NCBI RefSeq assembly: GCF_014203355.1
Contig: NZ_JACHIR010000001.1
Location: forward strand, 5,520,038-5,584,037
Reading direction: 5' to 3'
DNA length: 64,000 bases
Origin: Kutzneria kofuensis
Lineage (GTDB): Bacteria; Actinomycetota; Actinomycetes; Mycobacteriales; Pseudonocardiaceae
The notes beneath the pieces are model-generated. The model ran no database searches. It was not told the origin of the DNA and worked only from the letters and a program-made list of their open reading frames with translations. Numbering within the stretch: position 1 is the first letter of the stretch; every line of letters begins with the position of its first letter. The position numbers were made by a program, and so were the translations under genes. This document shows, piece by piece, positions 37,075-52,282 of the stretch.

Positions 37075-37240
37075 GCGTCCATCCAACACGCAGGACCGGC
37101 CATCTCGCGACGAAAAAGTGGCAATCGTTCGCTTCATCCGCCGAACGGACGCCGGATCGGACCGTCGGACACGAGAGCGTCACGATGTGTAAGTCACTCG
37201 AGCAAGGTGCTCCCGCCGGACTGTGAGGGGCGTTACGGTC

Positions 37241-37256
37241 ACTGGTCTGGACCGGG
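37241..37256. promoter_or_regulatory. DasR-type operator (dre) upstream of ngcE
   Basis: ACTGGTCTGGACCGGG matches the known dre consensus ACTGGTCTAGACCACT at 12 of 16 positions, including the whole ACTGGTCT left half and GACC. It lies 57 bp before the ngcE ATG. DasR is the GntR-family GlcNAc regulator that represses chitin and GlcNAc genes in actinomycetes and is released by GlcN-6-P. Confidence 0.75.
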
Positions 37257-37312
37257 TCGGGGCCGGTTCAACCAGGACCAACCGTCCACCTGACCAGCAG
37301 GGGGAAGATCCA

Positions 37313-38740
37313 ATGCCTAACCCATCGGGTTCCGAAATCTCCCGTCGACAGCTGCTTCAGCGTGCCGCCGCGCTCGCGGTGCTGGCCGGCCCCGCGGCCG
37401 GTGTGCTCAGTGCCTGCGCGGGCGGCGGAGGCGGCGCCACCGGCCCGACCGGAACCAAGAGCGCGACCAACCCGTTCGGCGTCGCCGAGGACGCCCCGCT
37501 GGACGTGGTGATCTTCGACGGCGGCTTCGGCCAGGACTACGCCAAGTACGACATCAACCTGTACAAGAAGGCGTTCCCCAAGGCCAACGCGGCCTTCAAG
37601 GCCACCCAGAAGATCTCGGACACGCTGCAGCCCCGGTTCGCCAACGGCACGCCGCCGGACGTGATCGACGACTCCGGCGACAACCAGATCAAGCCGGGCA
37701 CGCTGGTCAACAGCAGCGCCCTGACCGACCTGCAGCCGCTGCTGGACGCCCCCAGCTACGACGACCCGAACGTCAAGGTCAAGGACACGCTGCTGCCGGG
37801 CGTGCTGGACGTCGGCACCTACGACGGCAAGGTGTACCTGCTCAACTACGGCTACACCGTGTACGGCCTCTGGTACAACGCCAAGGTCTTCCGGGAGAAG
37901 AACTGGACCCCGCCGAAGACCTGGAACGACTTCAAGACGCTGGCCCCGCAGATCAAGGCCGCCGGCATCGCGCCGTGGGTGCACGCCGGCAAGTACCCGT
38001 ACTACATGGGTGTGCCGATCATGGACTGGGTCGGCAAGCTCGGCGGTGACCAGGTCCTGATCGACATCGACAACCTGAAGCCGAACGCCTGGCGCGTGGA
38101 CGCGGTGAAGGCCTCGCTCAACGCTGTGCTGGAGATGGTGCACAACGGCTGGGTCCTGCCGGGCGCCGAGGGCATGACGCACATCGAGTCGCAGCAGGCG
38201 TTCCTGGACGGCAAGGCCGCCTTCCTGCCGTGCGGCAGCTGGCTCGAGAACGAGATGCGCAAGACCACCCCGGCCGGCACCGAGCTGACGCTGCTGCCGA
38301 TGCCGGACCTGACCGACAAGGACGCGAAGCCCTACGGGACGCTGCGGGCCGAGGCGGGCGAGCCGTTCATCGTGCCGGCCAAGGCCAAGAACCAGGCCGG
38401 TGGCCTGGAGTTCCTGCGCATCATGCTGAGCAAGGACGCGGCCAAGAACTTCGCGCAGGCCACCAGCTCGCTGTCCATCGTCAAGGGCTCGGCCGACAGC
38501 GTGACCAACTCGACCGCGCTGACCTCGGTGAACAAGGCGGCCGCGGCGGCGGGCGACAACCTGCTGCACTACCGCTCGGTCACCGACTGGTACCCGACCA
38601 TGATCAACGAGTGGGAGGCCGCCACCGGTGAGCTGATGGCCGGCCGCTTCACCGCCGACCAGTGGATCGACAAGGTGCAGGCCGCCGCCGACAAGGTCGC
38701 CGCCGACAGCTCGATCCAGAAGTACCACCGGGACAAGTAA
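37313..38740 (+). CDS. ngcE: Sugar ABC transporter substrate-binding lipoprotein, NgcE-like (GlcNAc/chitobiose)
   Basis: 475 residues. SRRQLLQRAA gives a twin-arginine-like signal, and the lipobox LSAC near residue 36 makes it a lipoprotein. The rest is a family 1 sugar-binding fold (DVVIFDGGFGQDY; GLWYNAKVFREKNWTPPKTWNDFKTL; DGKAAFLPCGSWLENEM). Overall pattern fits NgcE, which binds GlcNAc and chitobiose in streptomycetes. ATG 37313 has GGGGAAG about 6 nt upstream. Two permease genes follow, and a DasR-type site precedes the operon, which supports the chitin-sugar assignment. A related oligosaccharide remains possible. Confidence 0.82.
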   Translation: MPNPSGSEISRRQLLQRAAALAVLAGPAAGVLSACAGGGGGATGPTGTKSATNPFGVAEDAPLDVVIFDGGFGQDYAKYDINLYKKAFPKANAAFKATQKISDTLQPRFANGTPPDVIDDSGDNQIKPGTLVNSSALTDLQPLLDAPSYDDPNVKVKDTLLPGVLDVGTYDGKVYLLNYGYTVYGLWYNAKVFREKNWTPPKTWNDFKTLAPQIKAAGIAPWVHAGKYPYYMGVPIMDWVGKLGGDQVLIDIDNLKPNAWRVDAVKASLNAVLEMVHNGWVLPGAEGMTHIESQQAFLDGKAAFLPCGSWLENEMRKTTPAGTELTLLPMPDLTDKDAKPYGTLRAEAGEPFIVPAKAKNQAGGLEFLRIMLSKDAAKNFAQATSSLSIVKGSADSVTNSTALTSVNKAAAAAGDNLLHYRSVTDWYPTMINEWEAATGELMAGRFTADQWIDKVQAAADKVAADSSIQKYHRDK

Positions 38741-38743
38741 CCG

Positions 38744-39673
38744 ATGAAATCTCGCCAGTTGCCCTTCATCGCGGGCTTTTTGGTCGTGCCGCTGGTCCTG
38801 TACGTGATCTACGTCGTCTCGCCGTTCGTGCAGACGCTGTTCTACTCGTTCACGGACTGGGGCGGGCTGACCAACACCCAAAACTTCATCGGCGTCGGCA
38901 ACTACGTGCGGCTGTTCCAGGACGACATCTTCCTGTCGGCCGTGCTGCACAACGCGTTCCTGCTGGTGTTGATGCCCGTGGTGACGATCCTGCTCGCGCT
39001 GTTCCTCGCGTTCATGCTCAACGTCGGTGGACGTGGGGACAGCGCGGGCATCCGGGGCGTGCGGGGTTCCAGCGTGTACAAGGTCGTGCTGTTCTTCCCG
39101 CAGGTGCTCTCGGTGGCCATCATCGTGGTGCTGTTCCAGTCGGTGTTCCGCACCGACGGGCGCGGGCTGCTCAACGCCGTGCTGATCGCGGTCGGCCTGG
39201 TCGACCCGAACAGGCCGGTGCAGTGGTTCAACTCCCCCGACCTGGTGCTGTGGTGCCTGCTCGCGGTGATGGTGTGGAGCGGGGTCGGCTTCTACATGGT
39301 GCTGTTCTCGGCGGCCATGCAGTCGATCCCGAAGGAGATCTACGAGGCGGCGCTGCTGGACGGCGCCACCCGCGGGCCGACGTTCTTCCGCATCACGCTG
39401 CCGCTGCTGTGGGAGAACATCTCGGTGGCCTGGGTGTACCTGGGCTTCATCGCGCTGGACGGCTTCGCCCTGGTCACCGGCCTGACCCCGGACTCGGGCG
39501 GCGGCGGTCCCGACCACGCCAGCGAGCTGATCTCCAACGTGCTGTACCGGACCGCGTTCACGCAGGGCAAGTTCGGCCTCGCCTGCGCGATGGGTGTGGC
39601 CCTGACGGTGTTCTCGCTGCTGCTGGCGATCGTGCAGTTGCGGATCACCCGGCGCGACCGCATCGAGTTCTGA
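38744..39673 (+). CDS. ngcF: Sugar ABC transporter permease, NgcF-like
   Basis: 309 residues, six predicted membrane helices. The EAA loop is EAALLDGATRGPTFFRITLPLL near 204-225, the contact site for the ATPase. Starts 3 bp after ngcE and forms one operon with it. It pairs with the next permease. The operon contains no ATPase gene, so a shared ATPase such as MsiK is expected elsewhere. Confidence 0.85.
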   Translation: MKSRQLPFIAGFLVVPLVLYVIYVVSPFVQTLFYSFTDWGGLTNTQNFIGVGNYVRLFQDDIFLSAVLHNAFLLVLMPVVTILLALFLAFMLNVGGRGDSAGIRGVRGSSVYKVVLFFPQVLSVAIIVVLFQSVFRTDGRGLLNAVLIAVGLVDPNRPVQWFNSPDLVLWCLLAVMVWSGVGFYMVLFSAAMQSIPKEIYEAALLDGATRGPTFFRITLPLLWENISVAWVYLGFIALDGFALVTGLTPDSGGGGPDHASELISNVLYRTAFTQGKFGLACAMGVALTVFSLLLAIVQLRITRRDRIEF

Positions 39674-39687
39674 GGGAGGCTGTCGAA

Positions 39688-40626
39688 ATGACCCAGCTCG
39701 TCACGGCCGCGCCGACGGCCCCGGAGGAGCAGCCCGAGCAGGCGAAGCCGCCGCGCGGCCAGTTCGGCGTGGTGAACTTCTTCTCGCAGGGCTTCCTGCT
39801 GCTGTGGGCGGCGATGGTGGTGCTGCCGCTGCTGTGGGCGGTGATGTCGTCGTTCAAGACCGACAGCGAGATCCTGTCCAGCCCGTGGTCGCTGCCGGCG
39901 ACCCCGCGGTTCGACAACTTCGCCCGGGCCTGGAGCACCGGCCACATCGGCACGTTCTTCCTGAACACGGTGATCGTGTTGGCCGGCGGCGTCACGATCA
40001 CCATGGTGGTCGGGTCGATGGCGGCCTACGTGCTGGCCCGGTACTCGTTCCCGGGCAACCGGATCATCTACTACGCGTTCGTCGCCGGGCTGACGCTGCC
40101 GATCTTCCTGGCCCTGGTGCCGCTGTTCAAGATCGTCGGCAATCTCGGCAACATCCCGGTGATCGGCCCGTACCTCGGGCTGAACTCCTACGCCGGGCTG
40201 ATCCTGGTGTACGTGGCGTTCTCGCTGCCGTTCACCGTGTTCTTCCTGCACTCGTTCTTCCGCACGCTCCCGACGGAGATCGCGGAGGCCGGGCTGCTGG
40301 ACGGCGCCTCGCACACGACGCTGTTCGCCAAGGTGATGCTGCCGATGGCCCGGCCGGGCCTGATCAGCATCGGCATCTTCAACGTGATCGGCCAGTGGAA
40401 CCAGTACCTGCTGCCGTTGGTGCTGCTCCAGCCGCAGTCCAGCTTCGACACCGACCACTCGGTGCTCGCGGAGGGCCTGCTCAACCTGGCCGTCGCGCAG
40501 GGCTACAAGTCGGACTGGTCGGGCCTGTTCGCCGGCATGACCATCGCCATGCTGCCGATGCTGGTGGTGTACGTGATCTTCCAGCGGCAGGTGCAGGCCG
40601 GTCTCACGGCTGGAACGCTCAAGTAG
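39688..40626 (+). CDS. ngcG: Sugar ABC transporter permease, NgcG-like
   Basis: 312 residues, six predicted helices after a cytoplasmic N-tail rich in Pro and Glu. EAA loop EAGLLDGASHTTLFAKVMLPMARPGL near 203-228. GAGGGAGG lies about 8 nt before ATG 39688. Third gene of the ngc operon; a hairpin at 40657 follows. Confidence 0.85.
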   Translation: MTQLVTAAPTAPEEQPEQAKPPRGQFGVVNFFSQGFLLLWAAMVVLPLLWAVMSSFKTDSEILSSPWSLPATPRFDNFARAWSTGHIGTFFLNTVIVLAGGVTITMVVGSMAAYVLARYSFPGNRIIYYAFVAGLTLPIFLALVPLFKIVGNLGNIPVIGPYLGLNSYAGLILVYVAFSLPFTVFFLHSFFRTLPTEIAEAGLLDGASHTTLFAKVMLPMARPGLISIGIFNVIGQWNQYLLPLVLLQPQSSFDTDHSVLAEGLLNLAVAQGYKSDWSGLFAGMTIAMLPMLVVYVIFQRQVQAGLTAGTLK

Positions 40627-40656
40627 CTGCAACCACTGTCTGATGCAACCACAGGG

Positions 40657-40690
40657 GCTGCCCGCACCGTCCTGGGGACATGCGGGCAGC
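40657..40690 (+). terminator. Hairpin after ngcEFG that holds the next start codon
   Basis: GCTGCCCGCA pairs with TGCGGGCAGC over a 14-nt loop, followed by CTTTGTGG. The ATG of the lipoprotein gene (40680) is at the base of the 3' arm, and GGGG is in the loop. It can work as operon terminator and also mask the next start codon. Confidence 0.55.
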
Positions 40691-41108
40691 CTTTGTGGTT
40701 CTAGCGATGTCAGCGATCCTCGTCGCCGGCTGTGGCTCGCGTGTGCAGCCGTCCGCGCCGCCGGCGGCGACGACAACCTCCCCGGCGCGGCCGTGTCCGT
40801 CGCCGCACCAGCTCACCATGGCGGACAACGGCCAGACCGTGTGCGTCGCCGTCGGTGACAAGTTCACCGTGAAGCTGCTGGACGACGGCAAGGGGCACTG
40901 GAGCGCCGTCACCAGCGACTCGGACGCGGTGGACGTGCTGCTGCTCACCGGCTCGCCGCCGATCAGCGGCACCCAGGCGGACTTCGTGGCCCGGCACAAG
41001 GGAACCGCGAAGCTCACCTCGACCCGGCCGGTGTGCCCGTCCGCGTCGCCGGGCGGCGTGACCTGTCAGGCCATGCAGGCCTTCACAGTGACGGTCACCG
41101 TGCCGTAG
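40680..41108 (+). CDS. Small secreted lipoprotein
   Basis: 142 residues. Short signal peptide with lipobox LVAGC (Cys18), a Pro/Thr linker, then a small beta-rich domain with cysteines at VCVAVGDKF, RPVCPS and VTCQAM. The C-terminal domain resembles protease-inhibitor-like or DUF-type folds, but I cannot name it. No other in-frame start would leave a usable signal sequence, so ATG 40680 inside the hairpin is kept. Ends overlap the convergent dehydratase by 14 bp. Confidence 0.65.
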   Translation: MRAAFVVLAMSAILVAGCGSRVQPSAPPAATTTSPARPCPSPHQLTMADNGQTVCVAVGDKFTVKLLDDGKGHWSAVTSDSDAVDVLLLTGSPPISGTQADFVARHKGTAKLTSTRPVCPSASPGGVTCQAMQAFTVTVTVP

Positions 41109-42012
41109 CCCAGGCGCTGTTGGCGCCGCAGAGCACGATGCACGGCAGCTCGGCCGGCACCCGGTCGGCGAGCCAGGCGGCGAGCGGTGCCGCGGCGGCG
41201 GGCTCGACCGCGAGCCGGAACTCCTCCCACAGAAGTTCTTGTGCGGCAAGGATCTCGGCGTCGGACACCAGCACCGACCGGGTTCGCGGCGAGTTGAGGA
41301 CGGCGAACGGCAGGTCACCGACCCGGGTCGCGCCGAGGGCCGACGCGGCGACGGAGTCCAGCACCTCCGTGTCGACGGGGCGGCCGGCCTTGAGCGCCGC
41401 GTGCAGGGCGTCGCAGCCCTCGGGTTCCACCGCCACGGTCGTCCGGTCGCCGATCGCCAGCGCGGTGCCGGCGGCCAGCCCGCCACCGCCGACGGCGACC
41501 AGCACGGCGTCCACCTCGGGCGCATCGGCGACGATCTCGGCGCCCATCGTGCCCTGGCCGGCGATGACGTCCGGGTGGTCGTACGCCGGCAGGTAGCGGT
41601 CCTGTGCCGTCACCGCAGCCAAGGCCGCCTTCGCGGCCTCCGCGTAGGTGCCGCCGTGTCGGACCAGCGTCGCCCCGATCGCCTCGATCCGCCGGGTCTT
41701 CGACTCTGGGGCGGACTCCGGCACGTACACGGTCGCGGGGAGGCCGAGCAGCGTGGCAGCGGTGGCCACGGCGAGCCCGTGGTTGCCGCCGGAGGCCGTC
41801 ACGACCCGAACCGGCCGGTCGCCCCGGGACAGGGCGTTCACCGCGCCGCGCAGCTTGAACGAGCCGGCGAGCTGCAGATGTTCGAGCTTGAACACGACTT
41901 CCCGGCCGCCGACCGACGTGCGCATGACGGGCGTGCGCCGGGCGTAGGGGCGGATCGTCTCGGCCGCGGCGGCCACGTCGGCGGCGGTCGGCAGGCCCAC
42001 GAACGTTGTCAT
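41095..42012 (-). CDS. PLP-dependent threonine/serine dehydratase-like protein
   Basis: 305 residues. The PLP lysine is Lys53 (AGSFKLRGA), TASGGNHGLAVA near 77 binds the substrate carboxyl, and GGGGLAAG near 170 binds the PLP phosphate. This is the fold-type II catabolic dehydratase or racemase group without an ACT domain. Substrate likely L-threonine or L-serine, or an analogue. Divergent from a LysR regulator with a LysR-type box between, so it is the probable target. Start ATG 42012 or 42024; no ribosome site for either. Confidence 0.82.
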   Translation of the reverse strand: MTTFVGLPTAADVAAAAETIRPYARRTPVMRTSVGGREVVFKLEHLQLAGSFKLRGAVNALSRGDRPVRVVTASGGNHGLAVATAATLLGLPATVYVPESAPESKTRRIEAIGATLVRHGGTYAEAAKAALAAVTAQDRYLPAYDHPDVIAGQGTMGAEIVADAPEVDAVLVAVGGGGLAAGTALAIGDRTTVAVEPEGCDALHAALKAGRPVDTEVLDSVAASALGATRVGDLPFAVLNSPRTRSVLVSDAEILAAQELLWEEFRLAVEPAAAAPLAAWLADRVPAELPCIVLCGANSAWATAR

Positions 42013-42040
42013 GCGGCCAACCATCGCCCCGCCGGGCCAT

Positions 42041-42057
42041 AATCGCCAGCGAGGATT
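42041..42057. promoter_or_regulatory. LysR-type box AAT-N11-ATT
   Basis: AATCGCCAGCGAGGATT fits the T-N11-A rule exactly, with 3-bp symmetric ends. It lies between the divergent dehydratase and LysR genes, 28-29 bp from the dehydratase start and 25 bp from the regulator start. Confidence 0.6.
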
Positions 42058-42082
42058 CGAGAGCCGACTTTAGGAGCGCTTA

Positions 42083-42976
42083 ATGCTCGACCCGGCCCGG
42101 CTACGCGTGCTGGTGGAGATCGGGCACGCCGGCTCGATCACCGCCGCGGCCGCCCGGCTGGCCTTCACGCCGTCGGCGCTGTCGCAGCAACTGGCCAAGC
42201 TGGAACGGGAACTGGGCTGCCGGCTGGTCGAACGCGGACCGACCGGCGTCACCCTCACGCGGCAGGGCGAAGTCCTGTTGCGACACGGCGAACGCGTGCT
42301 CGGCGAGCTGCGTGACGCCGAACGTGCCGTCAAGGCGTCGATCGAGGCCGAACCGGAGTCGCTGGCCATCGGCACGTTCTCCTCCGCCGGCAAGGTCCTC
42401 GTGCCGGAAGCCCTTGCCGCGTTGCGGGAACGGCATCCGCGCGCCCGGCTGTCCCTGGTGGACATCGAGCCGCCCGGCGGCTACGGCCTGGTCACCGCCC
42501 GCGACCTGGACGTGCTGATCACGCACCGCTATCCGGGCGGAACCCTGCCGTCCGACAACGGATTGCACCGCCGGCGGCTGCTCGCCGACCCGCTCCGGCT
42601 GGTGCTGCCGGCCGATCATCCCAAGGCCGACGGCAAGATCAGCCTGCGGGAGCTCAAGGACGAGGACTGGATCTCCGGCGCGCACGGCGTGCCGAACCGG
42701 ATCTGCCTGGAACACCTGTTCGCGCAGGCCGACATCCGCCCGCACGTGGCCTACGAGACGCGGGACTACGAGGTGACGCTGGCGCTGGTGGGGGCCGGCC
42801 TGGGCATCTCGCTGGTGCCGATGACCCTGCTCGGCGACGTGGACTGCGACCGGCTGGCGGTGCGGGTGCTGCCGGGCGTCCGGCCGGCCCGGGAGATCTT
42901 CGTCGTGCACCGCAAGCGCCCGCCGCGGCTGGTGGCGGAGCTGGTCGGGCTCCTCACGCCGGGTCGAGCAGGCTGA
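42083..42976 (+). CDS. LysR family transcriptional regulator
   Basis: 297 residues. Winged HTH at 1-65 (LVEIGHAGSITAAAARLAFTPSALSQQLAKLERELG), then a periplasmic-binding-like effector domain from about 90. TAGGAGCG precedes ATG 42083. Probably controls the divergent dehydratase and itself through the AAT-N11-ATT box; the effector is then likely an amino acid. Its last 23 bp overlap the convergent GGDEF gene. Confidence 0.9.
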   Translation: MLDPARLRVLVEIGHAGSITAAAARLAFTPSALSQQLAKLERELGCRLVERGPTGVTLTRQGEVLLRHGERVLGELRDAERAVKASIEAEPESLAIGTFSSAGKVLVPEALAALRERHPRARLSLVDIEPPGGYGLVTARDLDVLITHRYPGGTLPSDNGLHRRRLLADPLRLVLPADHPKADGKISLRELKDEDWISGAHGVPNRICLEHLFAQADIRPHVAYETRDYEVTLALVGAGLGISLVPMTLLGDVDCDRLAVRVLPGVRPAREIFVVHRKRPPRLVAELVGLLTPGRAG

Positions 42977-44183
42977 CCACCCGGTTGCGGCCGCCGCGTT
43001 TCGCCTCGTACAGGGCGGAATCCGCGGCCAGCAGCACCTGCTCCAGCACCGCGCCGGCCATCGGGTGCACCGACACGCCGATGGACGCCGACAGCGCGGA
43101 GACGGCCGCGCCGCCCTCGGTCACGGTCAGATCCTCGATGGCGGTCCGGATCCGCTCCGCGACGCGGATGGCGTCGGGCAGCCCGGCCCCCGGTAACAGC
43201 ACCACGAACTCCTCGCCGCCGAACCGGCCGACCGCGTCCACCTCCCGGACCTGGTCGCACACGGTGTCCGCGACCTCCCGCAGCACCGCGTCGCCGACCA
43301 GGTGCCCGTGCGTGTCGTTGACCCGCTTGAAGTGGTCGAGGTCGATCATCAGCACGCCGAACTCGGCGCCCCGGTCCAGCTCGCGGGCGGCGGCGTCGTG
43401 CCAGGCCACCGAGTTGAGCACGCCGGTCTTGTGGTCGGTGGTGGCCGCCTCCTGGAACTGTCGCATCAGGACGCCGCGGTGCAGCACCACGATCGGCACC
43501 ACCACCAGCGGCACCAGGTAGACGTGTGCCATCAGCACGACCGCGGTCAGCGCGCCCAGGCACAGCGTGGCCAGCTCCAGCGCGTTGACGTCCCAGCCGC
43601 CGAACAGCTCCCGGACCGTCAGGTCCGGATAGCGCAGCTTCAGCGCGATCGTCACGAGCGCACTGTTCGTGACGAAAAACGCGGCCATGGCCGCCGCGAT
43701 GGCGACCAGGCCGCGCAGGTCATGGTCGAGGAAGGGAAGGGCCCCGCCGACCGCCGCCAGCACGGGCCGCACCGGCAGCACGGACAGGACGGCCGTGGTG
43801 GCGGTGTAGATCACCCGGTGCGCCGGTCGGCTGGCCAGCTGCCGCCAGATCCGTTCCCACAGATGGCCGAACAGCAGCACGGTCAGCGCGACGGCCAACC
43901 CCGGCGTCAGGTCCACGGCGCCGGCGAAGATCCACACCGACGTCATGTTCACGTGCACGGTGCTGGCCAGGAACCGGCGCATCCGCTCGGTCCGCCGGGA
44001 CAGCTCGGCCTGCGCGACCCCGACCACCAGCAGCACCCCGAAGCGCAGCCAGTCGCCGCCGGTCGCGGGCCGCCCGGGTAAGAGGAACGGCAGGGTCACC
44101 GCCACCAGCTCCACCAGCACGGTGAAGGCGATGAGCGCGGGCGACAGCCGCCGGATGGCCCACTCCGCCGGCCGCACCAGCAA
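42954..44183 (-). CDS. Membrane-anchored GGDEF diguanylate cyclase
   Basis: 409 residues. About six to eight N-terminal hydrophobic helices (15-235), then a GGDEF domain with DLDHFKRVNDTHGHLVGD near 274 and the active motif GGEEF near 320, so c-di-GMP synthesis is expected. An allosteric I-site RxxD five residues before is not evident. TTG 44183 opens the frame; GTG two codons later is possible. No EAL partner nearby. Confidence 0.88.
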   Translation of the reverse strand: MLVRPAEWAIRRLSPALIAFTVLVELVAVTLPFLLPGRPATGGDWLRFGVLLVVGVAQAELSRRTERMRRFLASTVHVNMTSVWIFAGAVDLTPGLAVALTVLLFGHLWERIWRQLASRPAHRVIYTATTAVLSVLPVRPVLAAVGGALPFLDHDLRGLVAIAAAMAAFFVTNSALVTIALKLRYPDLTVRELFGGWDVNALELATLCLGALTAVVLMAHVYLVPLVVVPIVVLHRGVLMRQFQEAATTDHKTGVLNSVAWHDAAARELDRGAEFGVLMIDLDHFKRVNDTHGHLVGDAVLREVADTVCDQVREVDAVGRFGGEEFVVLLPGAGLPDAIRVAERIRTAIEDLTVTEGGAAVSALSASIGVSVHPMAGAVLEQVLLAADSALYEAKRGGRNRVVSLLDPA

Positions 44184-44255
44184 CGCCCGCCACCCCCTCG
44201 CCGTGTCCCGGCAGTATCGACCGGGAGCGGCCGGGTCTGCCAGCGCCGAACGTGC

Positions 44256-44606
44256 TCAACCGGCCAGGAGAACGAACAGCAGCGCCAGCGCACCGGGCAC
44301 CACCTGCACGAACAGGATGCGCTTGGTGGCGGTCAGCGCGCCGTAGATACCGGCGATGATCACGCAGATCAGGAAGAAGATCTCGGCCGGCCGGCTGCCG
44401 ATCAGGCCCCAGATCAGCCCGGCGGCCAGGAAGCCGTTGTAGAGGCCCTGGTTGGCGGCGAGCGCCTTGGTCTGCTCGGCGAACTCGGCGGACAGGCCGA
44501 AGGCGGCCCTGGTGCGTGGCGCCGTCCACAGGAACATCTCCAGCACGAGGATGTAGGCGTGGATCAGGGCAACCAGGGCGACCAGGACATCGGCGACGAT
44601 CAGCAT
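44256..44606 (-). CDS. DUF1304 family membrane protein
   Basis: 116 residues, four hydrophobic helices (4-24, 55-70, 75-92, 98-114) with EMFLW near 22 and the QGLYNGFLAAGL segment typical of DUF1304. Function unknown. Start ATG 44606; upstream frame to 44834 is antisense to the next gene and rejected. Confidence 0.82.
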   Translation of the reverse strand: MLIVADVLVALVALIHAYILVLEMFLWTAPRTRAAFGLSAEFAEQTKALAANQGLYNGFLAAGLIWGLIGSRPAEIFFLICVIIAGIYGALTATKRILFVQVVPGALALLFVLLAG

Positions 44607-44679
44607 CGGGTCAGTCTGCTGGATCACGTTGCCCGAACGCGCGGCAGTGACACGATGGTGGGTGGACGAGAGGACTTCC

Positions 44680-45486
44680 ATGCACGAGCTGCCCCCGGCC
44701 GCGGTCGAGCGACTGAACAGGGCCAAGCGCTCCGGCGTGCGGACCTCGCTGCTGTCCGCCCCGTCCGCCGCCGGCATCGAGGCCGTCGGGCTGGAGCCGG
44801 TCGGCGAGGTGATGGGCTGCGTCGTGCAGAGCATGGTCTCCCGCTACCAGACGTACGCGCCGGTCTACAGCTACAACGTCAGCGGCGTCGCGATGCCGTA
44901 CCTCGAGGCGCTGCAGAGCGGCTACTCCACCGCCCTGGCGCGGCTGCGCGAGGAGGCCACCACGCTCGGCGCGGACGGCGTCGTCGACATCCGGCTGAGC
45001 ACGAACTCGCTGGGCGGCGGCGAGGAGTTCCTGGCCATGGGCACCGCCGTCCGCGCCCGGTCCACGACCCGGCCGACGTCGCTGTTCACCACCGAGCTGT
45101 CCGGCAGCGACGTGGCCAAGCTGATGCTGGCCGGCTGGGTGCCCGTGCAGGTCGAGTGGGCCGGCGCCGCCAACGCCGTGTTCACGGGCTACGCCACGCA
45201 GGCGCAGACCTCGTTCTACGCCGGCAACACCGAGGTCGACTCGTACACCGCCTTGATCAACCGGGTGCGGGCCGACGCCCGTCGCCGGTTCCACGACATG
45301 GTGCGGTCCGTCGGCGCCGACGGCGGCATCGTGTCCCGGATGGCACTGTCCACCTGGGAGCCCGGCGAGCAGGTCGTGGCCGCGCTCGCGTCCGTGTACG
45401 GCACCGCCGTCGCCAAGTTCCACCGGGGCGGACCCGCCCCGGCCCGCACGCTGACCGTCATGCCGCTGCGCCGGCAGGGGGAGTGA
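44680..45486 (+). CDS. YbjQ/UPF0145-like (heavy-metal-binding domain) protein, two domains
   Basis: 268 residues. Two related units, 20-125 and 135-265. Each contains an ARLREEATTLGADGVVDIRL-type helix-strand (first near 85, second VRADARRRFHDMVRSVGADGGIV near 195), the conserved core of YbjQ domains. YbjQ forms ring pentamers of unknown role. GAGAGG precedes ATG 44680. Next gene starts after 1 bp and encodes a paralogue, so the pair arose by duplication. Confidence 0.75.
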   Translation: MHELPPAAVERLNRAKRSGVRTSLLSAPSAAGIEAVGLEPVGEVMGCVVQSMVSRYQTYAPVYSYNVSGVAMPYLEALQSGYSTALARLREEATTLGADGVVDIRLSTNSLGGGEEFLAMGTAVRARSTTRPTSLFTTELSGSDVAKLMLAGWVPVQVEWAGAANAVFTGYATQAQTSFYAGNTEVDSYTALINRVRADARRRFHDMVRSVGADGGIVSRMALSTWEPGEQVVAALASVYGTAVAKFHRGGPAPARTLTVMPLRRQGE

Positions 45487-45487
45487 G

Positions 45488-46294
45488 ATGACCACCGTCG
45501 ACGGGATCCCCGAGGACGCGATGCGTCGACTGGCCGAGATGAAACCCGGCCAGAAGACCACGCTGTTCACCTCGGACCTGAGCGTCAACGAGTTCCTGCT
45601 GGTGCGGGAGGCCGGGTTCCGGCCACTGGGCATGGTGCTCGGCTCCAGCATCTACCACGTCGGCTTCCAGTTCGGCCGGTGGAGCAAGAACCAGGAGCTG
45701 GAGGTCCTGTCCAACGCGATGTACCACGCCCGCGAGCTGGCCATGACCCGGATGGAGGCCGAGGCGGACGTGCTCGGCGCGGACGGGATCGTCGGCGTGC
45801 GGCTGGACATCGAGTTCAAGGAGTTCGGCAGCGACCTGGCCGAGTTCATCGCCGTCGGCACCGCGGTCAAGGCCGACGAGCCGGGGCAGTGGCGCAACAA
45901 CACCGGCAAGCCGTTCACGTCCGATCTGTCCGGACAGGACTTCTGGACGCTGGTGCAGGCCGGCTACGCGCCGCTGGGCATGGTGATGGGCTCGTGCGTC
46001 TACCACGTCGCCCACCAGCGATTCTGGCAGGCGCTGGGCAATGTCGGGCAGAACGTGGAGATCCCGCAGTTCACCGAGGCGTTGTACGACGCGCGCGAGC
46101 TGGCGATGAGCCGGATGCAGGCGGAGGCGGAGTCGTTGCAGGCCGAGGGCATCGTCGGCGTGCAGCTGCTGTCGCTGCCGCACCGGTGGGGCGGGCACAC
46201 CACCGAGTTCTTCGCCATCGGCACCGCGGTCAAGCCGCTGCGCGCCGACCACAGCATCGCCAAGCCGCAGCTCGTGCTGCCGTTGGTGGACTGA
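45488..46294 (+). CDS. YbjQ/UPF0145-like protein, second paralogue
   Basis: 268 residues, again two units, each with a GMVxGSxxYHV strand (near 49 and 165) and ARELAMTRMEAEADVLGADGIVGV (near 81) or ARELAMSRMQAEAESLQAEGIVGV (near 204). The unit-to-unit similarity is higher than in the first paralogue. Operon with the genes on both sides (1-bp gaps). Confidence 0.78.
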   Translation: MTTVDGIPEDAMRRLAEMKPGQKTTLFTSDLSVNEFLLVREAGFRPLGMVLGSSIYHVGFQFGRWSKNQELEVLSNAMYHARELAMTRMEAEADVLGADGIVGVRLDIEFKEFGSDLAEFIAVGTAVKADEPGQWRNNTGKPFTSDLSGQDFWTLVQAGYAPLGMVMGSCVYHVAHQRFWQALGNVGQNVEIPQFTEALYDARELAMSRMQAEAESLQAEGIVGVQLLSLPHRWGGHTTEFFAIGTAVKPLRADHSIAKPQLVLPLVD

Positions 46295-46295
46295 C

Positions 46296-46688
46296 ATGGC
46301 CGACAACATGTGGGACACGCACCTGGTCGTCGCCGCGTTGAAGGCCGACCGGGCGGATGTCGAGTCGTACACCCGGGTGCTGACCGAGACGCTGGGCGAC
46401 GCGCTGCCCGAGGGCATGGTCGAGGTGGAGCGCAAGCGCGGCCTGTTCGGCCGCGGCGGGCAGGTGACGTCGGTGGTGGTTCGTGCCCCCGACAAGCACC
46501 TGGAACTGCGTGCCGGCAAGCACGGCGGCGTGGAGGCGGAGATCCGGCAGGTGGTGCGGGGCGTGGTGATCAGCCGCAAGCAGGTCGGGGTGGACGAGTG
46601 GCTGGCGGTGTTCGCCGAGGTGCTGGGCGGCGTCGCCGCCCAGGACGCCGCCGCCCGCGAGGCGCTGACCAGACTGTTCGGGACGTGA
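46296..46688 (+). CDS. Small hypothetical protein downstream of the YbjQ pair
   Basis: 130 residues, soluble. RKRGLFGRGGQVTSVVVRAPDKHLELRAGKHGGVEAEIRQVVRGVVISRK forms a beta-rich middle, and the C-terminus is one helix. Starts 1 bp after the YbjQ paralogue, so it belongs to the same operon and may be a partner. A perfect hairpin follows. Confidence 0.7.
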   Translation: MADNMWDTHLVVAALKADRADVESYTRVLTETLGDALPEGMVEVERKRGLFGRGGQVTSVVVRAPDKHLELRAGKHGGVEAEIRQVVRGVVISRKQVGVDEWLAVFAEVLGGVAAQDAAAREALTRLFGT

Positions 46689-46694
46689 CCTTTG

Positions 46695-46737
46695 GAAGGG
46701 GGCATTCCTGGCGTTCAACGCCAGGAATGCCCCCTTC
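46695..46737. terminator. Perfect 21-bp hairpin with CATTCC core
   Basis: Arms 46695-46715 and 46717-46737 are exact complements around a single base. It terminates the YbjQ operon and the convergent chitinase gene. Preceded by TTTGGAA, as at 4871. Confidence 0.8.
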
Positions 46738-46743
46738 ACCGCA

Positions 46744-48066
46744 TCAGCCGTTGAATCCCTTGTAGAGGTTGGTGAAGTCGTACAGGCCCTGGGCGATGCC
46801 GCTGCACGTCGGCGAGACGCCGCCGCTCGCGCAGTTGCCGTTGTCCCGGCCGACCGACCAGAACGCCAGCCGTCCGATGTGGTTGGACTGGGCGAAGCTC
46901 AGCACCGCCTGCGCCGCCGCCTTGGTCGTCACCATGCCGCTGTCGTTGACGCCGATCATCGGCGTCAGGCCGAGCATCGCCTTGATCTGCGCGTCCGACT
47001 TCGACGGCCAGATGGTCTTCATCTGGCCCAGGGTGGCGTTGGCCGCCGACACCATGGCCTGACCCCAGTCGCCGGTGTAGCCGAAGTCCATGACCATGGG
47101 GTTGACCAGCACGTTGAGCCCGCGTGCCGCGGCGTCCTGGAGGATGGACACGGAGAACGGGTCGACGCCGTAGTCCTGGCCCTGCACCCGCAGCGTGTAG
47201 CTGACGGTGGTGCCGCGGGCCTGCTGCACGGCCAGCAGCGCCTGGTTGACCGTGGCTGTCGGGATGGACGCCTCGATGTCCACGTCCAGGCTGTTGCTGC
47301 CGACGGCGTCCAGGGCCTTCTCGTACGCGGCGGTGAGCGCCTGCACCGAGCCGCAGGTGTTCTCCAGGTACGGCCCGGCCGCGCCGCCGGTGGACACCGT
47401 CACCGAGCCGCCAAGGGCCTTCAGGTCGTTGACCTCGCCGATGACCCGGGGGTCGTTGAGCGGGATCGTGCCGCCCCAGGACACGTTGCAGCCCGTGGAG
47501 TCGGCCAGCGCGAAGGCGAGGTTGAAACTCTTCTGACCGGTCGCCCGGGCCACGTCCGCCAGCGTGGGCGTTGCCGCCGTGATGTCGATGTACGGCGAGA
47601 ACTTCGCGCCTACGCCGGTCGGCGGCGTCGTGGTTGTCGTCGTTGTCGTGGTGGTTGTGGTGGTGCTGGTCGGCGGGGTGGTCCCGCCGCCGCACGGCTG
47701 GCCGTTCAGCTTGCAGTTGGTCGGCATGCCGTTGCCGCTGACCAGGAAGCCGAAGCTGGTGCTCGCGCCGGCGGCCAGCGACCCGTTGTACTCACGGTTG
47801 GTGAACACCTGGTGCTGCGCGCTGGGCGTGTCCACGGCGTCCCAGTAGGAGCCCATGGTGGAGCCGGCCGGCAGGTCGAACTCGACCTTCCAACTCGTGA
47901 TCGGCGAGCTGCCGGCGGTGATCGTCACCTTCTCCTGGTAGCCGCCGGACCACGAGGAGTCGGTGGAGATCACCGCGCTGGGCGCGGTGGCCGCCTCCGT
48001 CAGGCCGGCGGCCACGAGCAGGCCGACGACCGGCAGGGCGGCCGCCAGGGCGATTGCGGCTTTCAT
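46744..48066 (-). CDS. Secreted GH18 chitinase with an N-terminal carbohydrate-binding domain
   Basis: 440 residues. Signal peptide 1-25. A CBM2-like domain at about 28-125 has surface Trp and a terminal disulfide (CKLNGQPC). A poly-Thr linker follows near 133-148, then the GH18 barrel with the catalytic SLDVDIE, the acid being Glu265. Hydrolyses chitin with substrate-assisted catalysis. Start ATG 48066 overlaps the stop of the 3D-domain gene by one base (TGATG), so both come from one message under the DasR-type sites at 48978-49014. The long frame to 48960 is not real upstream of 48066. Confidence 0.9.
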   Translation of the reverse strand: MKAAIALAAALPVVGLLVAAGLTEAATAPSAVISTDSSWSGGYQEKVTITAGSSPITSWKVEFDLPAGSTMGSYWDAVDTPSAQHQVFTNREYNGSLAAGASTSFGFLVSGNGMPTNCKLNGQPCGGGTTPPTSTTTTTTTTTTTTTPPTGVGAKFSPYIDITAATPTLADVARATGQKSFNLAFALADSTGCNVSWGGTIPLNDPRVIGEVNDLKALGGSVTVSTGGAAGPYLENTCGSVQALTAAYEKALDAVGSNSLDVDIEASIPTATVNQALLAVQQARGTTVSYTLRVQGQDYGVDPFSVSILQDAAARGLNVLVNPMVMDFGYTGDWGQAMVSAANATLGQMKTIWPSKSDAQIKAMLGLTPMIGVNDSGMVTTKAAAQAVLSFAQSNHIGRLAFWSVGRDNGNCASGGVSPTCSGIAQGLYDFTNLYKGFNG

Positions 48067-48809
48067 CAGCTCACCACCAGGTTCAGTCGTTGGATGCCCC
48101 AGTCGTTGGCCTGGTTGCCGGGCAGCCACACGTCGACGATGTCGTCCTTGATCCAGCTGCCGATGTCGGCGGCGTAGCAGCTGCCGTAGCCGGGCACGGT
48201 GAACCTGGTGCCCCACGGGATGTTGCGGGCGTCGACCGCGCAGAAGCCGGAGCCGGCGTTGTAGCCCAGCGCGGTCTGGCCGGTGTCGTTGTACGAGGTG
48301 ACGCGGTAGTTGAGGACCGTGCCCTTGGGCAGCGACCACGGCGCCAGCTTGCCGTCGGAGCCGACGCGGTAGGCGGTGGAGATCTGGCCGATGGACGGCT
48401 CCGAGCCGGACGGGTCGCTCATCGCGTAGAGCTGGTAGTTCGCGTTCTGGCAGGGGTTGTTGTCGGTGACGGTCAGCGTCGGCTGGCCCCAGTCGCTGAT
48501 CCACTGCAGCGCCTGGCCGTTGCGGAAGGCCCGGTAGGCGACCGCGCCGGCCACCCGCTTGAACGTGAAGGTGACGGTGCTGCCGGAGATGCCGCCGCTG
48601 ACGCCGCCCGGGGCGGAGAGTCTGCCGCTGACGTCGACCGGCGGGACGAGGGTTCCCGGACCGTGTCCGCCGGTCACCGGTCGGTCCGGGATCGGTCCGG
48701 TGTAGAAGTGCTGACAGGCTGGAAAGGACGGGGCCGCCTGGGCGGGCACGGCGACCACCGTGCCGGAGATGATCATCAGGGCGGCGGCGAGCAGGACGGA
48801 GGAGCGCAT
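48066..48809 (-). CDS. Secreted protein with an Fn3-like region and a C-terminal 3D domain
   Basis: 247 residues. Signal peptide about 1-27. A beta-rich part near 55-130 (GSTVTFTFKRVAGAVAYRAFRNGQ) looks Fn3-like. The C-terminal 60 residues (AVDARNIPWGTRFTVPGYGSCYAADIGSWIKDDIVDVWLP) have the 3D (Asp-Asp-Asp) double-psi barrel pattern seen in Rpf- and MltA-type wall enzymes. First gene of the chitinase operon. It may bind or loosen glycan, helping chitin or fungal wall attack; that is inference. ATG 48809 is preceded by GGAG-poor sequence, so translation initiation strength is unclear. Confidence 0.78.
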   Translation of the reverse strand: MRSSVLLAAALMIISGTVVAVPAQAAPSFPACQHFYTGPIPDRPVTGGHGPGTLVPPVDVSGRLSAPGGVSGGISGSTVTFTFKRVAGAVAYRAFRNGQALQWISDWGQPTLTVTDNNPCQNANYQLYAMSDPSGSEPSIGQISTAYRVGSDGKLAPWSLPKGTVLNYRVTSYNDTGQTALGYNAGSGFCAVDARNIPWGTRFTVPGYGSCYAADIGSWIKDDIVDVWLPGNQANDWGIQRLNLVVS

Positions 48810-48861
48810 GGCTGTGGCCTCTCTGCGGCAGGGGAGCGGAGAGTGGTGCACGCGCAACGGG

Positions 48862-48900
48862 GTGGTGTGGGGGCGAGGGCGCGTCACGCCCCCACACCAC
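48862..48900 (-). promoter_or_regulatory. 14-bp hairpin in the chitinase-operon leader
   Basis: GTGGTGTGGGGGCG pairs exactly with its complement across an 11-nt loop, 53 bp upstream of the first start. If the promoter lies at the DasR-type sites, this is in the 5' leader. It could stabilise the message or act as attenuator. Confidence 0.5.
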
Positions 48901-48977
48901 GGCTGTCGCCCACTGGGGGTGACCCTCCGCACTACGCGGCGGGTGGCCCGGTGGGTTCACGTCGCCCCTCGACCGTA

Positions 48978-48993
48978 AGTGGCCTAGACCACA
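48978..48993. promoter_or_regulatory. DasR-type operator 1 of the chitinase operon
   Basis: AGTGGCCTAGACCACA against the dre consensus A(C/G)TGGTCTAGACCA(C/G)T: 14 of 16 positions. It lies 169 bp from the ATG of the 3D-domain gene and 59 bp from the divergent MetE-like start. Confidence 0.8.
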
Positions 48994-48998
48994 ACGTC

Positions 48999-49014
48999 AA
49001 TGGGTCTAGACCTT
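48999..49014. promoter_or_regulatory. DasR-type operator 2 of the chitinase operon
   Basis: AATGGGTCTAGACCTT. Its GGTCTAGACC centre is perfect. Centre-to-centre distance to operator 1 is 21 bp, two helix turns. Streptomyces chitinase promoters carry the same kind of paired repeat (TGGTCTAGACCT). Confidence 0.8.
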
Positions 49015-49051: not shown

Positions 49052-50083
49052 GTGGAGAACTCACCCTGGGCAACCGCCGTCGCGACCGGCATCGGGTCGC
49101 TGCCCGGAACCGATCCCGGCGAGGCCAACCGGGTGGTCGTCGGCGAGCTGCCCGACCTGCCGCACCTGGCCGAGCTGCCGGCGCGGGGCGTCGGCGCCGA
49201 CATGATCGGCCGCACCGCCGGGCTGCTCGTCGACCTCGCCGTCGAGGTCGTGCCCTCCGGCTACCGTGTGGCTCCCCGGCCCGGCCGCGACCACCGCCGG
49301 GCCGTCGACCTCATGCGCTTCGACCTCGACGCCTTCCAGGACGCCGTCGAGTCGACCAAGCCGTCCGTGGTGAAGGTGCAGCTCACCGGCCCGTGGACCC
49401 TCACGTCTCTGGTCGAGCTCCCTCGCGGGCACCGGGTCCTGACCGACCCCGGCGCACTTCGCGAGTTCGCCGCTTCCCTGTCCGAGGGGCTCGCCGCACA
49501 TGTCGCCGAGGTGTCCAAGCGAACGGGCGCAAACGTTGTCGTGCAGTTGGACGAGCCGATGCTGCCGTCGGTCCTTCGGGGCCTGCTGCCCACCCCGTCC
49601 AAGCTCGGCTTCGTCGCTCCCGTCCCCGAACCCGAGGTCCGCGAGCTCCTCTCCGGCGTCATCGAGTCGGCCCGCCGGGCCACCGGCCAGCCCGTCATCG
49701 TCCACTGCTGCGCCGACCGGCCGCCGCTGTCCCTGCTCCGTTCCGCCGGCGCCGACGCCCTCGCCTTCGACCTGACGTTGCTCCGCAACGCCCCCGCCCA
49801 GGTCCTCGACCAGATCGGCGAAACCTGGGACGACGGCGCCGTCCTCTTCCTCGGCCTGGTTCCCACCGTCGACCCCGGCAAGCCCGTGCCGCTGAAGTCC
49901 CTCGCCCAGCCCGCCTTGGACCTCGTCGACAAGCTCGGCTTCGCCCGGTCGTTGTTGACGGAACGCGCGGTGCCGACGCCGACCTGCGGCCTGGCCGGCG
50001 CCGACCATGCCTGGGCCCGCAAGGCCATGTCGCTGGCCCGGGACCTGGGCAAGGCCTTCGCCGAGCCACCCGAGAACTGGTGA
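49052..50083 (+). CDS. MetE-like (cobalamin-independent methionine synthase C-terminal fold) protein
   Basis: 343 residues, about half of MetE. GIGSLPGTDP at 13-22, VKVQLTGPWTL near 107, QLDEPML near 167 and the zinc-type VHCCAD near 213 and PTCGLAG near 310 match the barrel of MetE. The N-terminal folate domain is absent, so classical methionine synthase activity is doubtful. It may use a different methyl donor. GTG 49052 start. Same place as Rv3015c before ligA in M. tuberculosis, although here other genes lie between. Confidence 0.85.
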   Translation: MENSPWATAVATGIGSLPGTDPGEANRVVVGELPDLPHLAELPARGVGADMIGRTAGLLVDLAVEVVPSGYRVAPRPGRDHRRAVDLMRFDLDAFQDAVESTKPSVVKVQLTGPWTLTSLVELPRGHRVLTDPGALREFAASLSEGLAAHVAEVSKRTGANVVVQLDEPMLPSVLRGLLPTPSKLGFVAPVPEPEVRELLSGVIESARRATGQPVIVHCCADRPPLSLLRSAGADALAFDLTLLRNAPAQVLDQIGETWDDGAVLFLGLVPTVDPGKPVPLKSLAQPALDLVDKLGFARSLLTERAVPTPTCGLAGADHAWARKAMSLARDLGKAFAEPPENW

Positions 50084-50422: not shown

Positions 50423-52282
50423 ATGCGAGTTGGAACAGTGGCGATCGCGTCCCTGGCCGCGATCGCCTCGGTGAGCTTCGCCGTGCCCGCGGCGGCCGCC
50501 ACCACCGCCCAGATCAGGGTCGACCAGGTCGGATACGCGACCGGGGAGACCAAGGCCGCCTACCTGATGGGCACGACGTCGAACGCGGGAGCATCGTTCT
50601 CCGTGGTCGACTCGGCCGGGAAGTCGGTGCTGAGCGGCAAGGTGGGCGCCAGCACGGGCAAGTGGAGCACGGCCTACACAGCCGTCTACCCGATCGACAT
50701 CTCGGCCCTGAAGACGGCCGGCACCTACCAGATCAAGGTCGGCAGCACGGTGTCACCGTCGTTCAAGGTGGACAGCGCCAACGCGCTGTTCTCGCCGATC
50801 GCCGACGACGTGGTGAAGTTCTTCCAGGCCCAGCGGGACGGCGCGGACGTCATCTCGGGCGTGCTCAACCGCAAGCCGAGCCACCTCACGGACAAGTCGG
50901 CGTCGGTCTACAACGTGCCGACCTTCACCGGCGACGACACGATCAGCAGCAAGATGTCCAAGACGGGCGCCACGATCGACGCCTCGGGCGGCTGGTTCGA
51001 CGCGGGCGACTTCCTCAAGTTCACGGTGACGACCTCGTACGCGGTGACCAACCTGCTGCTGTCGGAGCGGTCCCGGCCGAGCACCTCGCTGACCGCGGAG
51101 GCGCAGTACGGCCTGGACTTCCTGAGCAAGATGTGGGACGCCAAGAACGGGGTGCTGTACGCGCAGGTCGGCGTCGGCGGCGGTAGCAGCAAGGAGAACT
51201 TCGTCGGCGACCACGACGTGTGGCGGCTGCCGGAGGCCGACGACAAACTGAACGTCAAGGCCGGCGACGAGAACTACTACATCAAGTACCGCCCGGTCTT
51301 CGCGGCCAACAAGGCGGGCCAGAAGATCAGTCCGAACCTGGCCGGCCGTGTCGCGGCGGCGTTCGCCGTGGCGGCGCAGAACCTGGCGGCCACCGACAGG
51401 ACGAAGGCCACGCAGTACCTGTCCACCGCGGCAGCGATCTACGGTCTGGCCAACACTGCGGGCGGCAGCATCGTCTCCGCCTACCCGCACGGCTACTACC
51501 CCGAGTCGTCCTATCTGGACGACCTGGAGCTGGGCGCCGCGGAGCTGGCGCTGGCCGCGAACGCGCTGGGCGACAACCGCGCCGGCACCTGGACGACCGA
51601 CGCCGGCAAGTGGGCCAAGGCGTACCTGGCCAGTAGTGACCAGGGCACGCTCAACGTCTACGACACCAGCGCGCTCGGCCACGCCGACCTGGTCAAGCTG
51701 CTGCGCCTGAAGAACTCCCCGAAGGTTGACGTCACCGAGGCGCAGCTCACCGGCGACCTGGCCCGCCAGCTGTCCGACGGTGTCGCCGAGGCGGCCAAGA
51801 GCCCGTTCCGCACCGGCGCCTCCGTCACCGACTTCGACGTGGCCAGCCACAGCTTCGGCTTCGTGGCCACGGCCCTGCTCTACGGCCAGCTGACCGGCAA
51901 GCACGACTACGACGCGTTCGCCACCCAGCAGCGCGACTTCGCGCTCGGCTCCAACGCCTGGGGCACCTCCCTCGTGGTCGGTGTGGGCAGCACCTTCCCA
52001 CACTGCATGCAGCACCAGGTGGCCAACCTGGCCGGCAGCCTCACCGGCGGCGCCAAGGTGGCGGTCGGCGCGGTGGTGAACGGCCCGAACAAGGCCAGCC
52101 TGTTCAAGGAGATCGACAGCCTGCCGGACGGCGGCAAGTCCTGCGGCGTCTCCTCGTTCAAGACCTACGACTCCACCGCGTCGCGCTACATGGATGACGT
52201 GCGGACGTGGCAGAGCTCGGAGCCGGCGATCGACTTCACCTCGACCGCCGCGCTCGCGTTCAGCCTGACTGCGGCAGGCTGA
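50423..52282 (+). CDS. Secreted GH9 endoglucanase (cellulase)
   Basis: 619 residues. Signal peptide about 1-26 (cleavage at AAAATT). An Ig-like CelD_N domain at about 28-115 (IRVDQVGYATGETKAAYLM). The GH9 alpha-barrel carries the base Asp residues near 193 and 196 (GGWFDAGDFLKF) and the acid Glu near 600 (WQSSEPAIDFT). No cellulose-binding module is seen. GGAGG lies 6 nt before ATG 50423. Monocistronic, with a 14-bp hairpin terminator. Confidence 0.92.
   Translation: MRVGTVAIASLAAIASVSFAVPAAAATTAQIRVDQVGYATGETKAAYLMGTTSNAGASFSVVDSAGKSVLSGKVGASTGKWSTAYTAVYPIDISALKTAGTYQIKVGSTVSPSFKVDSANALFSPIADDVVKFFQAQRDGADVISGVLNRKPSHLTDKSASVYNVPTFTGDDTISSKMSKTGATIDASGGWFDAGDFLKFTVTTSYAVTNLLLSERSRPSTSLTAEAQYGLDFLSKMWDAKNGVLYAQVGVGGGSSKENFVGDHDVWRLPEADDKLNVKAGDENYYIKYRPVFAANKAGQKISPNLAGRVAAAFAVAAQNLAATDRTKATQYLSTAAAIYGLANTAGGSIVSAYPHGYYPESSYLDDLELGAAELALAANALGDNRAGTWTTDAGKWAKAYLASSDQGTLNVYDTSALGHADLVKLLRLKNSPKVDVTEAQLTGDLARQLSDGVAEAAKSPFRTGASVTDFDVASHSFGFVATALLYGQLTGKHDYDAFATQQRDFALGSNAWGTSLVVGVGSTFPHCMQHQVANLAGSLTGGAKVAVGAVVNGPNKASLFKEIDSLPDGGKSCGVSSFKTYDSTASRYMDDVRTWQSSEPAIDFTSTAALAFSLTAAG

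Follow-up and report, generated by a model that had tools for sequence, protein, structure and literature searches.

Two chitin-related operons of Kutzneria with dre-like operators, as probable members of a genome-wide DasR regulon

Are chitin hydrolysis and the import of its products coordinated by one repressor in Kutzneria (Pseudonocardiaceae)? The question is raised by a 64-kb stretch of its 10.4-Mb genome (G000; contig 1, 5520038-5584037; hereafter the window), in which an ngcEFG-type transporter operon and an operon for a secreted 3D-domain protein and a GH18 chitinase are both preceded by sequences resembling DasR-responsive elements (dre). A sequence-only reading of the window took the two operons for a module coordinated by DasR. 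Our analysis supports DasR coordination of hydrolysis and import, and qualifies two further parts of that reading, the term "module" and a shared transport ATPase. The two operons very probably belong to a genome-wide DasR regulon, in which DasR would repress through dre and be relieved on chitin. This arrangement is largely textbook; the novel part is a dre-bearing family of secreted proteins with FN3 and 3D domains.

Results

Three dre-like operators in the window

Searching the window for the 12-mer TGGTCTAGACCA with up to 2 mismatches gave 5 matches, compared with a mean of 1.0 in shuffled sequences, of which 0/100 reached 5. Two of the matches (23513 and 30740) fall inside predicted genes, and the remaining three, at 37243, 48980 and 49002, are intergenic. 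These are the operators of the sequence-only reading, one before the transporter genes and a pair before the GH18/3D operon, and our search confirms all three. We built a scoring matrix from 25 further sites of this genome, picked by hand; with it, the members of the pair ranked first and second in the window (21.2 and 18.4 bits), and no position scored as high in a background of 50 control loci (0/149,850 positions).

A predicted double-dre promoter before the 3D-GH18 operon

Judged from its sequence, the pair belongs to a conserved promoter that faces the chitinase. Read toward the chitinase, on the minus strand, the predicted promoter runs AGGTCTAGACCC-A-TTGACG-TTG-TGGTCTAGGCCA-CT-TACGGT. 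The upstream dre (49002-49013) adjoins the -35 hexamer TTGACG (48995-49000), and the second dre (48980-48991), which starts 22 bases from the first, lies inside the 17-base spacer between this hexamer and the -10 hexamer TACGGT (48972-48977). Downstream on the same strand (48809-46744) are the gene for the secreted FN3-3D protein (48066-48809) and, overlapping it by one base, that for a secreted CBM2-GH18 chitinase of the Pyrococcus furiosus ChiA type (46744-48066; CBM2; 2dsk, E 5.7e-47). The catalytic DxDxE motif of GH18 is present in the latter as LDVDIEA, aligned to LDFDIEA of 2dsk.

The promoter block is kept in other genera. It was listed in 26 distinct loci, with a spacer dre of the same kind in 20 (two shifted by one base) and a degenerate one in the others, in a list selected by the presence of TTGAC following a dre-like half, which leaves misses uncounted. 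Within this genome, 9/30 gene-oriented cases have a TTGAC whose first base lies 5-16 bases upstream of a dre, vs 0/100 control orientations, a comparison in which both members of some pairs are counted and the control sites are mostly coding. One further dre-TTGAC-dre block of promoter-like form (L029:3008-3041) has no convincing gene downstream on that strand.

The pair is also associated with GH18 across genomes. A MetE-like gene (49052-50083, plus strand; PF01717), which diverges from the operon on the other side of the pair, was found in 58/60 genomes, and the dre pair is present in 13 of the 30 MetE-like loci fetched. GH18 lies nearby in 10/13 loci with the pair vs 0/17 without it; more DNA was inspected for some of the 13, and an equal comparison, using the MetE loci alone, gives 7/13 vs 0/17. 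The pair-bearing loci without GH18 are G006, which has the 3D gene alone, and G027 and G032, where neither gene was found.

The ngcEFG-type transporter and its operator

The plus-strand transporter operon (37313-40626) begins with ngcE (37313-38740), predicted to encode an N-acetylglucosamine (GlcNAc)/diacetylchitobiose-binding lipoprotein (TIGR03851, 605.6 bits, cut-off 399.65). It is followed by genes for an NgcF-type ABC permease (38744-39673; BPD_transp_1) and an NgcG-type ABC permease (39688-40626), the latter assigned from weak sugar-permease family matches, all below their cut-offs, and with an uncertain start codon. We found no ATPase gene in this operon. The dre-like operator, TGGTCTGGACCG (37243-37254, plus strand; 16-mer 37241-37256), is intergenic, lies 70 bases upstream of the ngcE ATG and follows a -10-like hexamer TACGGT (37234-37239). 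It is identical in 6 Kutzneria genomes and has one extra mismatch in a seventh. Across the 7 genomes 10/12 of its columns are invariant, compared with a mean of 2.9 for non-coding upstream 12-base windows, and only three upstream windows reach 10 invariant columns, all of them overlapping the dre. According to PMC6167110, DasR of S. coelicolor is bound to a dre before ngcE and released by GlcNAc 6-phosphate (GlcNAc-6P). The ngc site, though weak by matrix, is supported by its placement and its conservation within the genus.

The DasR orthologue and the wider dre set

The sequence-only reading depended on a DasR homologue being encoded in the genome, and an orthologue lies at C1:3663 kb (327 bits, E 6e-97 to S. 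coelicolor DasR, 9i0v/4zs8). A stretch of the DNA-binding domain, SRTTVRQAL, is identical in the two proteins. The gene adjoins dasABC, and the DNA separating it from them holds two dre-like sites, one with 1 mismatch and one with 2. A DasR match of at least 70% identity is present in 32/36 family genomes searched, this one included; G008, G009, G010 and G033 are those without.

Genome-wide, the 12-mer occurs with at most 1 mismatch at 44 places, of which 24 are strictly intergenic, 7 lie within 200 bases of a predicted 5' end and 13 are coding. For a reversed control pattern the corresponding numbers are 2, 11 and 37 (50 of 53 places examined), and the difference in strictly intergenic placement, 24/44 vs 2/50, is significant (Fisher p 2e-8). 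We scanned 30 proteins encoded at or near these sites, a hand-chosen set that mostly leaves aside genes with a site in their coding part. Those related to chitin or GlcNAc comprise 9 GH18 proteins (one just below cut-off), GH19, LPMO10, CBM5 and GH3 proteins, and glmS-, ptsI-, nagA- and phosphotransferase system (PTS) EIIC-type proteins. The others are GH92, GH12, SLT_3, two GDSL, GAPDH, acetyl-CoA synthetase, SIS, lactonase, TetR and LacI-type proteins and two without a family; such off-theme proteins may reflect chance or unknown targets. A nagB gene (238.7 bits, cut-off 236.9) has a 2-mismatch dre 37 bases upstream, so that the dre set, dasR and nagB, for which the sequence-only reading had proposed to look, are all present.

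Two observations from this set stand apart. Intergenic dre before the acetyl-CoA synthetase gene and near the GAPDH gene (L021:3002, L005:1501) hint at links to central metabolism. The secreted SLT_3 lysozyme-like protein (L001:1501-2119; C1:548687-549302) has a perfect dre 118 bases upstream of its gene, which is kept with 0 or 1 mismatch in 5/5 close Kutzneria orthologues; among 15 more distant loci, one has a 2-mismatch site.

Two probable members of a regulon rather than a module

The two operons are neighbours here, with operators about 11.7 kb apart, as the sequence-only reading had noted, but this linkage was seen only within the genus. The distance between ngcE and MetE matches is 6.9-15.8 kb in 7 Kutzneria genomes and 2.5 Mb in G022; in G003 the dre pair and the 3D gene are both missing. 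In G007, G013, G016 and G023 the pair is retained at the chitinase, and the only binding-protein matches found there are distant (at most 33% identity where listed). Since linkage was seen only in Kutzneria and the chitinase pair is kept where only distant binding-protein matches were found, the window shows a regulon at one place, not an inherited module. The proposal of a single repressor agrees with the DasR orthologue, the genome-wide dre and the chitinase-side promoter; "module" overstates the relation between two members of a large regulon.

The suggestion of a shared ATPase fared similarly. It fits the lack of an ATPase gene in the ngc operon, but a stand-alone msiK was not found by OB_MalK or identity searches of the genome. 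The OB_MalK profile finds 2 genes, at C1:3104 kb and C1:3752 kb, each the last gene of an operon that also encodes a binding protein and permeases, as judged by the order and appearance of open reading frames and not by family search. The two MalK/MsiK-type ATPases are 55% identical to each other, and further matches to one of them have at most 45% identity over the best stretch. One of the two may serve both NgcEFG and DasABC.

A dre-bearing family of secreted FN3-3D proteins

The 3D domain (PF06725) of the window protein scores 31.1 bits against a cut-off of 23.8, and 24/24 aligned family members match it, with D193, D215 and D226 invariant in all 24. An AlphaFold2 model and fold comparison place the domain in a barrel fold as in the lytic transglycosylase YuiC, whose three aspartates are present; the protein is thus predicted to be lytic-transglycosylase-like. 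Searching the named genome collection gave close relatives at 24 loci. These loci are related and do not count as independent trials; at 18 of them the 330 bases upstream of the 3D gene contain a dre (up to 2 mismatches), compared with 74/8,695 random 330-base windows drawn from the same loci. By genus, the site is present in 4/4 Kutzneria, 12/12 Amycolatopsis, Streptantibioticus and one metagenome bin, and no such site was found, by the same limits, at the 3D genes of Fodinicola, four Kribbella and Streptomyces sp. SID13031. GH18 is directly downstream of the 3D gene in 7/24 loci, and the genes flanking the 3D gene differ between Kutzneria and Amycolatopsis. Of the 17 loci without a directly downstream GH18, which include a broken 3D copy (L212) and two that show only about 1.2 and 0.5 kb past the gene (L207, L210), 12 have a dre, so the dre goes with the 3D gene itself.

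What might such a protein do? One proposal, which we consider unlikely, is that it is a secreted chitin lytic transglycosylase within the DasR regulon of Kutzneria, Amycolatopsis and relatives, releasing 1,6-anhydro-ended oligosaccharides without the use of water. If this is true, chitin breakdown would have a third route in addition to hydrolysis and oxidative cleavage by lytic polysaccharide monooxygenases, and FN3-3D would represent a chitin-cutting enzyme that is non-hydrolytic and yields a new product class. A serious possibility, although short of an even chance, is that the protein serves peptidoglycan turnover and has no role with chitin, or that it is a non-cutting, loosenin-like protein. 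According to PMC4499186, YuiC and MltA are peptidoglycan enzymes, and the SLT_3 lysozyme-like gene described above also carries a conserved dre. PMC9888185 describes loosenin-like proteins, which have a related type of barrel and affect chitin networks without cleavage. Expansins are absent from the 50 rows listed in the fold comparison, a result that is neutral as to such kinship.

Compared with YuiC/Sps and MltA, as described in PMC4499186, the proteins studied here differ in having FN3 in front, in being secreted by actinomycetes and in having dre upstream, and their activity is predicted. Loosenins and expansins share a double-psi barrel related to that of MltA, according to PMC9888185, whereas our protein matches the 3D family by sequence. 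A literature search, limited to listings, returned no recognised description of a 3D-domain protein linked to chitin or DasR; the main texts of PMC4398421 and PMC12370203 never use the term "3D domain", and that of PMC4398421 never uses "transglycosylase". Here, regulation would give a clue to what an uncharacterised family of secreted proteins does.

Discussion

In the mechanism that we favor, DasR would occupy the dre pair when chitin is absent and block RNA polymerase, with one dimer beside the -35 hexamer and one between the -35 and -10 hexamers, and would also sit on the weaker dre near the start of ngcE. When chitin is present, GlcNAc-6P and glucosamine 6-phosphate would loosen DasR; the CBM2-GH18 chitinase and the FN3-3D protein would then be secreted and NgcEFG made, which would import GlcNAc or chitobiose with an ATPase encoded elsewhere.

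Streptomyces chitinase promoters are reported (Delic 1992; Ni and Westpheling 1997) to contain direct repeats. PMC6097792 likewise describes direct repeats at such promoters and DasR binding there, and the promoter studied here resembles them in having repeated operator copies. More broadly, the S. coelicolor DasR regulon, as presented in PMC4398421, PMC6097792 and PMC6167110, has the same type of repressor and operator and overlapping targets (ngcE, dasA, chitinases, nag genes, pts and glmS). Kutzneria differs from it in belonging to the Pseudonocardiaceae, in having ngcEFG and a GH18 operon as neighbours, and in having dre also before FN3-3D and SLT_3 proteins. Our results would extend the DasR chitin regulon, its operator and its promoter geometry to Kutzneria and relatives, with the double operator as a clean phylogenetic footprint.

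Several observations weigh against DasR repression of both operons. The ngc site scores 11.6 bits, fifth in the window, and because 4/149,850 background positions reach that score, its sequence alone is not above chance for 64 kb. When the most distant genome (G003) is excluded, stretches further upstream are as conserved as this site, and the region near the gene start of the more distant NgcE homologues of G022, G039 and G049 showed no dre within 2 mismatches. A weak site is not disqualifying, since the S. coelicolor ngcE dre matches 12/16 consensus bases and yet binds DasR, according to PMC6167110. At the promoters with TTGAC before dre, TANNNT at a spacing of 16-18 is found in only 3/9. 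Raw genome-wide counts are not raised over the reversed control (44 vs 53 for the 12-mer, 24 vs 29 for the 16-mer) and fail to separate dre from it, which is why placement was used instead; there, too, no excess occurs near predicted 5' ends (7/44 vs 11/50), and only strictly intergenic placement is enriched. The sign of control also varies. According to PMC6167110, S. coelicolor DasR is needed for maximal chitinase expression and Saccharopolyspora erythraea DasR represses chitinases; according to PMC6097792, deletion of S. coelicolor dasR altered chitinase transcripts little.

Some of the sites could also be bound by another regulator, a second NagR/DasR-like GntR protein that is 39% identical to this DasR (L006:1501-3012; C1:877.8-879.3 kb). 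Its gene has a 1-mismatch dre upstream and a PTS EIIC gene after it, and the protein matches the YvoA and DasR structures (E 8e-41 and 1.5e-36). We nonetheless regard binding by this protein in place of DasR as improbable: apart from this level of identity, the corresponding DNA-binding stretch reads SRLTVRAAV, and all 13 genomes with the MetE-side pair have a DasR match of at least 85% identity.

It is very improbable that the pair serves the nearer, divergent MetE-like gene, with the chitinase a bystander, as that gene's start only 39 bases from the pair and the persistence of the pair beside MetE in G027 (L213) and G032 (L214) might suggest, because the -35 and -10 elements are oriented away from MetE, the 17/30 MetE loci without the pair include none with GH18 within about 1.5 kb, and the same block precedes Amycolatopsis 3D genes in a different setting. 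The pair in G027 and G032, which weighs against assignment to the chitinase, looks as if it were a relic.

Other genes of the window

A secreted GH9 enzyme with a CelD_N domain (50423-52282) adjoins the MetE-like gene. Neither a dre-like site (up to 2 mismatches) nor a CebR-like site was found upstream of its gene, and the search for CebR-like boxes gave 1 match vs 0.71 expected, which is not above chance. Between the ngc and 3D-GH18 operons lie genes for a small family-less protein, a pyridoxal phosphate enzyme, a LysR regulator, a GGDEF protein, a DUF1304 protein and YbjQ-type proteins, which bears out the earlier description of the intervening genes as unrelated. In 44256-46688, genes for two proteins of the YbjQ type are in a row with that for a third small protein; the first overlaps the DUF1304 open reading frame on the opposite strand.

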